From the IMG/VR virus record IMGVR_UViG_3300028794_000191, positions 1 through 31,896 of that record: DNA of 31,896 nucleotides. One strand, 5' to 3'. Positions 10,826 to 16,255 of the stretch are shown piece by piece. This stretch comes from a virus. Position 1 is the first letter of the stretch. Each line of letters opens with the position of its first letter. A model generated the notes under the pieces. That model made no database searches, was not told the DNA's origin, and saw only the letters and a program-made list of their open reading frames with translations. The position numbers were made by a program, and so were the translations under genes.

Positions 10826-12406
10826 GTGAGCAACGTCCGCCAGATCCCACGCAACACGGCGGATGATGACGGCTTCACGCGCGTTCCTCCCCAGGACCTC
10901 GACGCAGAACAATCCGTCCTCGGCAGCACGTTCATCTCCGAACGCGCGATCGCCGACGTCATCGAGATCCTCGAAGGCCGCGACTTCTACCGCCCCGCGC
11001 ACGAAACGATTTTCCTGGCCGTCACCGCCATGGCCGTACGCGGCGAACGCGTCGACCCCATCACCGTCGCCGCCGAACTCGCCAAGCGCGGCGAACTCGA
11101 CAGGGTCGGGGGCGCCCCGTACCTGCACCACCTCGTCCAGCAGGTGCCCTCCGCGGCCAACGCGGAGCACTACGCCGAGATCGTCCACAGCACCGCTGTA
11201 CGCCGCCGCATCATCGAAGCCACCGACCGCGCAGCCCAGCTCGTCCGCTCCGGCGAAGGCGACCTCGACGACGTCCTCGACCTCGTCCGCGAAGAGATCA
11301 CCACCGCCACCGAACCCCGCGGCCCCCGCAACAGCCCGGCCGCCGGCTGGGACTTCTCCGACCTCACGCCCGTCCTCGACGGCACCCACAAACCAGCTCA
11401 GCCGATCGTGGGCGCGAGAGACGACGGCATCGGCCTCTTCTACCCCGGCCGCGTCAACGGCATCCAGGGCGAGTCCGAAGCCGGCAAGAGCTGGGTGGCT
11501 CTCGTCTCCTGCCTCGTCGAGATCAACCGCGGCAACCTCGTCGTCTACATGGACTTCGAGGACTCCGAAGAAGGCGTCGTCTCCCGCCTCCTCCTCATCG
11601 GCGCCACCCCCAAGGACATCGCCGAACGCTTCCTCTACATCCGCCCCGGCGCCACCCCCACCCCCGCGCAGCTGCGCGCCGTCATCGACCGCATCGGCGC
11701 CCTCCAGCCCACCCTCGTCATCGTCGACGGCGTCACCGAGGCCATGGTCATGCTCGGCCTGGAGCTGAAAGAGAACACCGAGATCGCCAAGTTCGGCCGC
11801 ATGCTCCTGCGCCCCCTCGCGGACACCGGGGCCGCGGTCGTCCCCCTGGACCACGTCGTCAAGGCAACCGAGTCCCGCGGCCGGTACGCCCTCGGCGGCG
11901 TCCACAAGCTGAATGCCGTCGACGGCGTCCAGTACATGCTGGAGGCCGTCCGCCCTTTCGGCATCAACACCGAGGGCCGCTCCCGGCTGCGCATCGCGAA
12001 GGACCGGCCCGCGCAGATCCGCCGGCACGCGCTCCCCGGCGGGCGGAACCCCATGCACTGGTTCGCCGACCTCGTCATCCGCTCCGAGGGCGACCAGTTC
12101 GCCACCGCGCACCTCTTCCCGCCGATCCAGCACGTCGACGAACCGGGCGACCTCACGGCGCGGGAGGAGAAGGCGGAGCAGGACGAGGCGGAGATCAAGG
12201 GCCGTGAGGACAAGGTGCTCCAGATCCTCACCAAGGCCATCGAGCCGCTCAGCAAGAACGCCCTGGAGGAACTCATCCCCGGGCGCGCCTCGGTCACTCG
12301 CAGGGCCCTCACGCGGCTCGTCCACACCGGGCGCGTGAAGACCGAGCGTGGCGGCCGTGGCGCGGTCCTCCACAGCATCGCGGACACCCCCGAGGAGTCC
12401 TCGTGA
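10826..12406 (+). CDS. Replicative ATPase: DnaB N-terminal domain, RecA/RepA-like core, C-terminal winged helix
   Basis: GTG 10826 with GAGGAG upstream. Residues 22-130 match the DnaB helicase N-terminal domain (PPQDLDAEQSVLGS at 21-34, FYRPAHETIF at 54-63, LHHLVQQVPSAANAEHYAEI at 100-119). Residues 205-400 are a RecA-fold ATPase of the AAA_25/RepA kind: Walker A GESEAGKS (215-222), YMDFEDSEEG (241-250), Walker B TLVIVDGV (296-303) and PLDHVVK (340-346). Residues 460-518 look like a winged helix (KNALEELIPGRASVTRRALT). The protein is longer than RepA helicases and differs from true DnaB in the core. It probably serves as origin-binding helicase or loader for the repeat array that begins 14 nt after its stop. 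Confidence 0.88.
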   Translation: MSNVRQIPRNTADDDGFTRVPPQDLDAEQSVLGSTFISERAIADVIEILEGRDFYRPAHETIFLAVTAMAVRGERVDPITVAAELAKRGELDRVGGAPYLHHLVQQVPSAANAEHYAEIVHSTAVRRRIIEATDRAAQLVRSGEGDLDDVLDLVREEITTATEPRGPRNSPAAGWDFSDLTPVLDGTHKPAQPIVGARDDGIGLFYPGRVNGIQGESEAGKSWVALVSCLVEINRGNLVVYMDFEDSEEGVVSRLLLIGATPKDIAERFLYIRPGATPTPAQLRAVIDRIGALQPTLVIVDGVTEAMVMLGLELKENTEIAKFGRMLLRPLADTGAAVVPLDHVVKATESRGRYALGGVHKLNAVDGVQYMLEAVRPFGINTEGRSRLRIAKDRPAQIRRHALPGGRNPMHWFADLVIRSEGDQFATAHLFPPIQHVDEPGDLTAREEKAEQDEAEIKGREDKVLQILTKAIEPLSKNALEELIPGRASVTRRALTRLVHTGRVKTERGGRGAVLHSIADTPEESS

Positions 12407-12419
12407 ACCAGCCCGCCGC

Positions 12420-12712
12420 ACCTCGTCCCGACCTCGTCCCGATCTTCGGACGACCTCGTCCCACCTCGTCCCGTGACACTCCGTCAGATTCCATACCGGT
12501 CGGGATGTTCGCAGGTCAGCGCGATATCGACCTCGTCCCGATCTTGAAACCCACCTCGTCCCGACCTGACACACCATCACGGGACGAAGTCACACCCCCT
12601 CCCACCTGCACAAACACACTCACCGCGACCTCGTCCCACCTCGTCCGGGACGAAGTCGGGACGACGTCAAGCGACCTCGTCCCTCGTCCCCCGCCCTATA
12701 GGGGGACGAGGA
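12420..12712. repeat. Iteron-like array of 10-bp units, candidate replication origin
   Basis: Eight exact copies of ACCTCGTCCC start at 12420, 12431, 12453, 12463, 12530, 12553, 12628 and 12674. One-mismatch copies are at 12638 and 12681 in the same orientation and at 12581, 12647, 12658 and 12703 in the opposite orientation. Many spacings are close to 10-11 or 22-23 bp, so copies would lie on one face of the helix. Copies fall in all three reading frames, so selection is on the DNA, not on a peptide. The array fills the 413-nt gap (12407-12819) behind a helicase-type gene, as expected of an iteron origin. A regulator-binding cluster or partition site remains possible. Confidence 0.8.
12683..12710. 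other. Perfect hairpin closing the iteron-like array
   Basis: CTCGTCCCCC (12683-12692) and GGGGGACGAG (12701-12710) are a perfect 10-bp inverted repeat around the 8-nt loop GCCCTATA. The arms are themselves array units in opposite orientation. It could be a cruciform/origin element or a terminator for the ATPase transcript. Confidence 0.6.
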
Positions 12713-12819
12713 CGAGCGTCGCGACAACAACACCCGACACAGCCACACCACGAGCACCACAGCACGACCGCACGCATCCGGTTCCGGACGGGCCCACGCA
12801 CATACAGAAGGAAACGATC

Positions 12820-13728
12820 ATGACCACCCTCGCTCCGAACCCCCACAGCCCCTACGCCGACGCAGACCCCGAGACACGGCACATCTTCCCCAGCCCGATC
12901 TTCTTCCCTCAGGCCAAGCCAGGCGTCCTGGCGCTGACGGCCTGCGAGGGCATGGCCGTCGTTCCGGAAGACCTCATCGAGACCCAGCCCAACGCCGCAC
13001 TGCCGGACGGCCTGTGCCCGGCCTGCGTGACCGTGATGCAGGGCGGCGCCCCGCCCAAGCGGCCGTCGTCGGAGTGCGGCGAGTGCGGTACGGCGACGTG
13101 GCACGGCGTTCTGTGCGCGTTGTGCCGGCAGGACAAGCACGAGGCGTGGTGGCCGACCCGCGACACCGCCCGCACCTTCACCCCTGACGTGAAGACCGTC
13201 AACGACGAAGGCCACACCGTCACCACGATCAAGGTCAAGCGCGCCTGCAACGGCTGCGGAACCCTCCTCGGCGACCTCCAGGACCGCGACGTCGACGCCC
13301 ACGGCAACCTCACCGACGTCCGCGCCGAATGCGACCGCTGCGCCCCGCTGGTCGAGCTGGAGGCGCAGGGCTGCAAGACGTGGCTGCTCACACCGCGCAA
13401 CATCACCGACGTCGACGACGAGGTCGATCGGGACCGGATCTACGCCAAGGGCTACTTCGAGTCGGATGGCGACAAGAGCGTCTGCGTCGGGCTCCGCATC
13501 GGCACCGGCGAGACCCGCATCGTCGCCCGCTACGGGGACCACGTCATCCGGCACCCCGACGGCCGCTGGAGCGTCCGTAAGGCGCCCGCCGAGCCCAGCG
13601 TCGAGACCTTCTGCACCTACGGCGCCACCAGCGCGCCCGGCTCCGGCTGCGTCCTCCTGGCCGGCCACGAGCCCGCCAACCGGCACATCGTCACGCCCGG
13701 CGACGCCGACGAGGACGAGCAGCCGTGA
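12820..13728 (+). CDS. Multi-zinc-ribbon phage protein (302 aa)
   Basis: ATG 12820 is preferred because AGAAGGA precedes it; the same frame is open back to 12403 but that part only translates the repeat array. Five CxxC pairs are visible: C66/C69, C86/C89, C99/C102, C143/C146 and C171/C174, enough for two or three zinc ribbons in residues 60-175. The C-terminal third has VCVGLRIGTGETRIVARYG and an ending with CVLLAGHEPANRH that might bind another metal. It may bind DNA or act as an adaptor near the origin. The function is unknown; it starts a new overlapping gene run. Confidence 0.78.
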   Translation: MTTLAPNPHSPYADADPETRHIFPSPIFFPQAKPGVLALTACEGMAVVPEDLIETQPNAALPDGLCPACVTVMQGGAPPKRPSSECGECGTATWHGVLCALCRQDKHEAWWPTRDTARTFTPDVKTVNDEGHTVTTIKVKRACNGCGTLLGDLQDRDVDAHGNLTDVRAECDRCAPLVELEAQGCKTWLLTPRNITDVDDEVDRDRIYAKGYFESDGDKSVCVGLRIGTGETRIVARYGDHVIRHPDGRWSVRKAPAEPSVETFCTYGATSAPGSGCVLLAGHEPANRHIVTPGDADEDEQP

Positions 13729-15535: not shown

Positions 15536-16255
15536 ATGACCACCACCGCCCACCACCTCCGCACCATCACCCTCCACTGGACCGACCTCACCCAAGCCCT
15601 CGCAACCACCGGCACCGCCACCTGGCCCCCCGCCGGACGCATGACCGACTACCTCGCCAGCATCGACCGCAACGACGCCGAGGAACTGGAGGCCGAACGC
15701 CACCGCGCGCTCGCCCTCCGCACCCTCGAACGCGACCCCACCCAGATCGGCGAAACCCGACCCCCGCTCCGCATCGCCGTCCTCGACACCATGCGCACCG
15801 TCGAGGCCGCCCTCGTCAACACCGCCGATCAGGTCGCAGCCGTCGTTCAGCGCTCCCCGATGCCCTTCGCCCCCCGCTCGTGGCCGGCCGCCGACCGGGC
15901 CCGCCGCGACCAGCTGGCGCGCGCGGACGCGGCAGACCTTCGCCGCTGGCGCTACTCCGGCCGCCGGATCGCGACGTACGCAGGACTGTGGCTCCTCGCC
16001 CGAGTCGAGCGCGCGCCAGGCCCGTTCATCGCGTTGCCTGATACGCAGGCCCGGCTGATCGCGAACGTGGCCGCAGGCGCAGCCGAGCGCGTAGAGCGGG
16101 CCCTCGACGTTGCCGCACGCGTCGCGCCCCTCGCCCGTCCGTGCCCGGACTGCGGCGGGCGGATCGAGATGCACGGGGGTGCCGGCGCCGATCCGGTGGC
16201 GCATTGCACGAGGTGCGGGCACGTGTGGTCAGGGCAGAGCACGGCCGTGGCGTAG
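15536..16255 (+). CDS. Conserved phage protein with C-terminal zinc ribbon (239 aa)
   Basis: ATG 15536 with AGGAG 6-7 nt upstream. The product is helical for about 190 residues (LHWTDLTQALATTG, AVLDTMRTVEAALVNTADQV, QARLIANVAAGAAERVERAL) and ends in a zinc ribbon with CPDCGGRIEM and CTRCGHVW. This overall arrangement is common among Streptomyces phage and prophage proteins annotated only as hypothetical. It is the last gene of the rightward early block; the terminator at 16334-16364 lies between it and the convergent HTH gene. Confidence 0.8.
   Translation: MTTTAHHLRTITLHWTDLTQALATTGTATWPPAGRMTDYLASIDRNDAEELEAERHRALALRTLERDPTQIGETRPPLRIAVLDTMRTVEAALVNTADQVAAVVQRSPMPFAPRSWPAADRARRDQLARADAADLRRWRYSGRRIATYAGLWLLARVERAPGPFIALPDTQARLIANVAAGAAERVERALDVAARVAPLARPCPDCGGRIEMHGGAGADPVAHCTRCGHVWSGQSTAVA

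Follow-up and report, generated by a model that had tools for sequence, protein, structure and literature searches.

The locus lies in a 31.9-kb virus record of IMG/VR, the whole of which was analysed and is here called the window. Genes for terminase, portal, capsid and tape-measure proteins are present, indicative of a tailed phage or prophage. The features of the locus are:

10826–12406, plus strand: ATPase gene (526 aa), directly before the array; DnaB_N at residues ~20–160, RecA-fold core at ~175–435, C-terminal winged helix at ~440–520
12131–12403, plus strand: part of this gene coding for the winged helix; helix 2 bears N478 and E481, and recognition helix 3 has A488 and R492 at its start
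12420–12712, ten units on the plus and four on the minus strand: array of 14 units ACCTCGTCCC, predicted sites for the ATPase winged helix
12463–12590: inverted element with arms 12463–12487 and 12566–12590 (...CCCGTGACACTCCGTCAG / CTGACACACCATCACGGG...)
12671–12721: terminal hairpin with convergent units on either side of CTATA and a ~20-bp stem
12823–13728, plus strand: next gene downstream of the array, differing among relatives that keep the array

Elsewhere in the window, positions 15536–16255 encode a PHROG 7575 protein with a weak match to the restriction alleviation protein Lar.

The gene before the array had been read in a first-pass annotation as a DnaB_N/RecA-like ATPase with a C-terminal winged helix, and this agrees with Pfam matches to DnaB (2e-32) and AAA_25 (8e-8), with an AF2 model (pLDDT 88) and with structure matches to 2r5u (Z 21) and to KaiC/DnaB (Z 20). 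The PHROG match was to a DnaB-like helicase (2e-33). Canonical DnaB_C gave no Pfam match at threshold in the window ATPase, the DnaB_N match being strong and the core being AAA_25, and the likeness of the structure to DnaB and to KaiC was about equal. The C-terminal domain is predicted to be a winged helix and matches solved winged helices such as those of Rpa2, Z-alpha, MarR and Fur. All members of the ATPase family have the RecA core and the C-terminal domain in common, while the N-terminal part varies and can be DnaB_N, Prim-Pol or absent. The Prim-Pol domain is fused to the ATPase in some members, and at one locus the two are encoded by neighbouring genes.

The array comprises eight exact and six one-mismatch copies of ACCTCGTCCC in the orientations listed above, as had been counted at the first pass, and its start was again placed 14 nt past the ATPase stop codon (12404–12406). 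By chance, 0.054 units would be expected in the array segment, with a maximum of 2 (local shuffles, n = 2000), and 5.5 in the whole 32 kb (whole-window shuffles). Spacings close to helical turns had also been remarked upon, and family-wide the spacing of same-orientation units does peak at 10–11 bp, so that units of the same direction face the same side of the duplex. A convergent unit pair around a TATA core (12684–12711), absent from the first-pass annotation, closes the array and is conserved; convergent units around a TA-rich core were found in 76 of 129 arrays and in none of the shuffles. The inverted element flanks a unit pair with GCAGGTCA in between and is retained by several relatives. 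The motif CAGGTC (mostly GCAGGTCA) lies between unit blocks, near alignment position 12535, and is invariant in ten aligned close relatives (L003–L105).

The array has a GC content of 64% and holds no classical A+T-rich melting region, the terminal hairpin having a short TA-rich core. A search of 12407–12820 that tolerated one mismatch found no DnaA box; such boxes are common, not universal, in iteron-type theta replicons. GC skew was uninformative. These points stand against reading the array as an origin.

One open frame (GTG 12403) crosses the array and joins the next ORF, the start of which is more likely the ATG at 12823. In the relatives L003, L004 and L007, none of the three forward frames stays open across the array, so that the window array is taken to be non-coding; in the relative L008, one other frame stays open through it. 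The location of the array within the coding tail of the gene in some relatives might suggest that codon bias or a repetitive peptide gave rise to the repeat as a by-product. However, units fall in all three frames, as had been claimed for the window, lie on both strands and are mostly outside genes; the closed frames of L003, L004 and L007 also speak against a coding by-product, as does the covariation of unit variants with a different region of the protein (described below). This explanation is refuted by the sequence and its probability is negligible.

Array and gene were found to be conserved together. In all six close IMG/VR relatives (L003–L008) the array lies directly 3′ of the gene, and in L006 and L008 the units are switched array-wide to ACCCCGTCCC. 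A scan of IMG/VR with DNA only, for which the criterion was two units ≤12 bp apart, returned ~60 contigs with dense arrays, nearly all of them with an ATPase homologue; these homologues, down to 28% identity, end at the array and point into it. Three arrays initially without the gene (L060, L070 and L075) had the ATPase on the same contig once more flank was included (L182, L237 and L186, respectively), and a scan of GTDB genomes yielded 59 further loci, nearly all Actinomycetota by their titles. Conservation of an array beside related ATPase genes, on which the first-pass proposal of an origin had been made to depend, was observed with de novo motifs at 129 of 142 non-redundant loci and then at 57 of 60 further loci with <90% identity to the first set, a locus being counted when its motif score beat all shuffles.

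The array, family-wide a cluster of some ten units, sits just past the stop codon or within the 3′ end of the gene; where the reading frame runs on past the winged helix, it is inside the coding tail, directly after the winged helix. The motif search region was defined as the sequence after the winged helix, and a search downstream of the stop codon alone misses the coding-tail arrays. A motif score >130 was reached by 103 of 142 array windows (73%), as against 24 of 432 other windows from the same loci (5.6%). The shuffle control is lenient, with 31% of unrelated windows beating all 20 shuffles, and the claim therefore depends on the threshold for the score, on the consensus shared between arrays and on the covariation. 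The 10-mer was recorded in more than 20 unit variants, including ACCCCGTCCC, ACCTCGCCCC, ACTGCGTCCC, ACCGTGTCCC, CCGTTCCCC, ACCCTTTCCC and GGTGGTTCC, and at L014 the motif search turned up the unit ACCTGCCC 12 times. An array was looked for and not found in the distant DnaB-type homologues L009–L013 and in phage KimJongPhill. Left out of the evidence were L076, which resembles a 30-bp tandem repeat, and L093 and L096, which lie at contig ends. Even sampling of its bacterial class put the frequency of the ATPase family at 4.6%, and IMG/VR has hundreds of stretches with a member. In the records examined, exact units formed one array per genome, bar three singletons.

Some named phages were also inspected. 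Streptomyces phage Dagobah (L276) carries a gene annotated as RadB-like, the 3′ end of which holds CGACCGGTTC in ~10 copies, and is a cultured phage with a member of the ATPase family and another unit. Microbacterium phage Hendrix (L278) has a possible array of AGAATTCGGC (nine copies) after gene 91, downstream of a more distant Prim-Pol protein. In phage MinS1 (MZ923504.1; L016, L286), for which a Microcystis host is reported, the ATPase core is 77% identical to that of Nocardioides oceani and the other best matches are also actinobacterial, so the assigned host seems odd. Its array is overlain by an annotated ORF (297–491).

The relationship between the winged helix and the units was studied by computing mutual information at 118 loci, the unit positions being compared with 311 columns of the protein and the 249 columns outside the winged helix serving as a control for shared ancestry. 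The top column for each of unit positions 4, 5, 6 and 7 was residue 478, 481, 492 and 488, respectively (Fisher p = 1.5e-9, 2.8e-10, 3.2e-6 and 5.2e-4), all of them in the winged helix, on its helices 2 and 3. The covariation of these four residues with the units exceeds that of the RecA core, and the effect persists in the 58 closest pairs by RecA core (p from 4.5e-5 to 0.003). E481 occurs only with C5 (71/71) and R492 with G6 in 89 of 90 cases; T or S at 478 pairs with C4, R478 with G4 and R488 with C7. Arginine–guanine and glutamate–cytosine are standard base-reading pairs. A switch in specificity is seen between L018/L050, with units ACCTCGTCCC and residues N-E-A-R, and L209/L239, with units ACCCTTTCCC and residues S-I-(A/T)-(M/L), the winged helices being otherwise similar domains. 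In a divergent out-of-sample set the covariation had the same direction and was weaker (p from 0.014 to 0.35), partly because the unit register is uncertain there; the forward rules gave C5 for E481 in 5/5 cases and G6 for R492 in 13/14. Since the bases of the units covary with four winged-helix residues, the protein that binds the array would be the ATPase itself. Binding by the winged helix had been a guess at the first pass; the residue–base covariation lends it strong support at the level of sequence, and the winged helix very probably binds the units.

The module is also found on small plasmids. The ATPase and its own array are carried by p-XQ-29-C (7.9 kb; units ACCTGCCC) and by pKRAD02 (12.9 kb; units GGAACCACC), and a Pfam search recognised no other Rep on either of them. 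A 7210-bp contig of Actinomadura rubrisoli (L119/L283) has Prim-Pol, ATPase and array, and the coverage of 2943 given in its title suggests a high-copy element; no terminal overlap indicative of circularity was found on this contig (L119).

Regulator operators can be short bidirectional sites and the terminal hairpin might act as a terminator of transcription, so the array might be an operator cluster through which the ATPase operon or the next gene is transcriptionally controlled. Set against this, the array is 3′, not 5′, of the ATPase gene, and the covarying protein is the ATPase. The gene downstream of the array differs between close relatives while the array persists, and is therefore not a likely target of regulation. 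No second array was seen elsewhere in the genomes. A role as operators is very unlikely. A partition centromere is another conceivable role: parS repeats can sit just after repA in mycobacterial prophages (PMC7157519), and TubR is among the structure matches of the winged helix, so that a parS-like site might be read by a ParB or a TubR-like protein. However, ParA and ParB were not found among the window ORFs tested, the specificity follows the ATPase winged helix, and on pKRAD02 there are separate ParA and RHH genes, 7 kb from the array. The single locus per genome and these separate genes argue against both operators and parS, and the probability of the latter is judged to be slight indeed. 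The convergent TA core, the 10–11-bp phasing, the single locus and the unconserved next gene are more readily accommodated by an origin than by an operator or a centromere.

One interpretation of these data, and the probable one, is that the array is a cis site for the ATPase winged helix, with one unit for each, and most likely an iteron-type replication origin. The origin role is supported indirectly, by the Prim-Pol and DnaB_N fusions, the two small plasmids and the single cis locus. It could be that the ATPase binds the array for a purpose other than initiation, for example at a recombination, packaging or copy-number-control locus, especially as its core is a RecA fold of the AAA_25/KaiC/DnaB group, recombination genes (RecE-like exonuclease) lie upstream in the window, and binding is no proof of initiation. 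However, the fusions and the presence of the module on two small plasmids that have no other recognisable Rep count against such a role, as does the absence of packaging genes beside the array, and it is considered unlikely.

For an iteron-type origin, we infer binding itself, ring assembly, melting and replication to run as follows. Several ATPase subunits would bind the 10–11-bp-phased units and form an assembly on the DNA; the likely site of duplex opening and of loading of the RecA-fold ring would be the convergent pair with its TA-rich core. The primase could be supplied in some members by the fused or neighbouring Prim-Pol, and in others, the window phage included, by recruitment through DnaB_N.

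Several known systems resemble this arrangement in part. The origin repeats of the satellite phage P4 are decamers that point both ways and make up the ori1/crr clusters; unlike the arrays of the ATPase family, they are not placed at the 3′ end of the gene for alpha, and the helicase of the alpha protein is SF3. The P4 alpha polypeptide unites domains for priming and unwinding with a C-terminal winged helix that binds the origin repeats, and its primase is TOPRIM (PMC4234260). The ATPase family shares with it a C-terminal winged helix (predicted and structure-matched) and, as covariation would have it, the reading of repeats, but differs in its RecA-fold core of AAA_25/DnaB type and in its DnaB_N or Prim-Pol N terminus. 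In the Sulfolobus plasmid pRN1, the ORF904 protein combines Prim-Pol, helicase and C-terminal winged helix, and an essential origin element that includes a stem-loop lies directly 3′ of its gene (PMC4234260), just as nearly all ATPase relatives have their array immediately behind the winged helix. The ORF904 helicase is SF3, whereas the family core is AAA_25/RecA fold, and the pRN1 origin is without iterons, its bound motif not being identified, whereas the family has an iteron-like array. Because its motor is a RecA fold and not SF3, the ATPase family falls outside both the P4 alpha and the pRN1 types.

The Streptomyces theta plasmid pWTY27 has a short unit in both orientations and a long inverted repeat beside its rep genes, a Prim-Pol gene (RepB), and RepA–iteron binding shown in vitro (PMC3583192). 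An actinobacterial host, short bidirectional units and, in some members, Prim-Pol are common to both systems, but in pWTY27, compared here by description only, the reader RepA is a separate protein and is not known as a member of the ATPase family. RSF1010 likewise has a RecA-fold helicase, a primase and iteron recognition in one replicon, divided among three separate proteins (RepA, RepB′ and RepC), the iteron reader being RepC and not the helicase. Corynephage BFK20 gp43 (RepA-like) is an actinobacterial phage protein in which Prim-Pol is fused to a RecA-fold helicase; to our knowledge, no iteron array or winged-helix code has been described for it. The lambda O gene, too, is an initiator gene that contains its own repeat origin; O is not an ATPase and depends on P and host DnaB, and its repeats are mid-gene.

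No phage or plasmid paper was among the matches listed for the unit ACCTCGTCCC in the literature, and the part of the literature on the topic that was covered gave analogues and no account of the ATPase family, the array or the code. The paper on one named phage labels the family protein a chaperone-like AAA ATPase (PMC8876498). This widespread actinobacterial phage and plasmid ATPase family with an array at the 3′ end of its gene is apparently undescribed. It is slightly more likely than not that a putative DnaB-like RecA-fold helicase is here its own origin reader, with helicase, initiator and origin forming one cassette of at least 20 specificities written in a four-residue code. DnaB-type replicative helicases normally require separate initiator and loader proteins, and a helicase, an origin reader and an origin working as one unit, if true, would be a different solution from that of the DnaB type. 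Since the units and the reader residues covary, the origin read by each protein should be predictable, and hence also which elements should interfere with one another; the diversity of units may provide Streptomyces and other actinobacteria with a natural set of replicons that are independent of one another.
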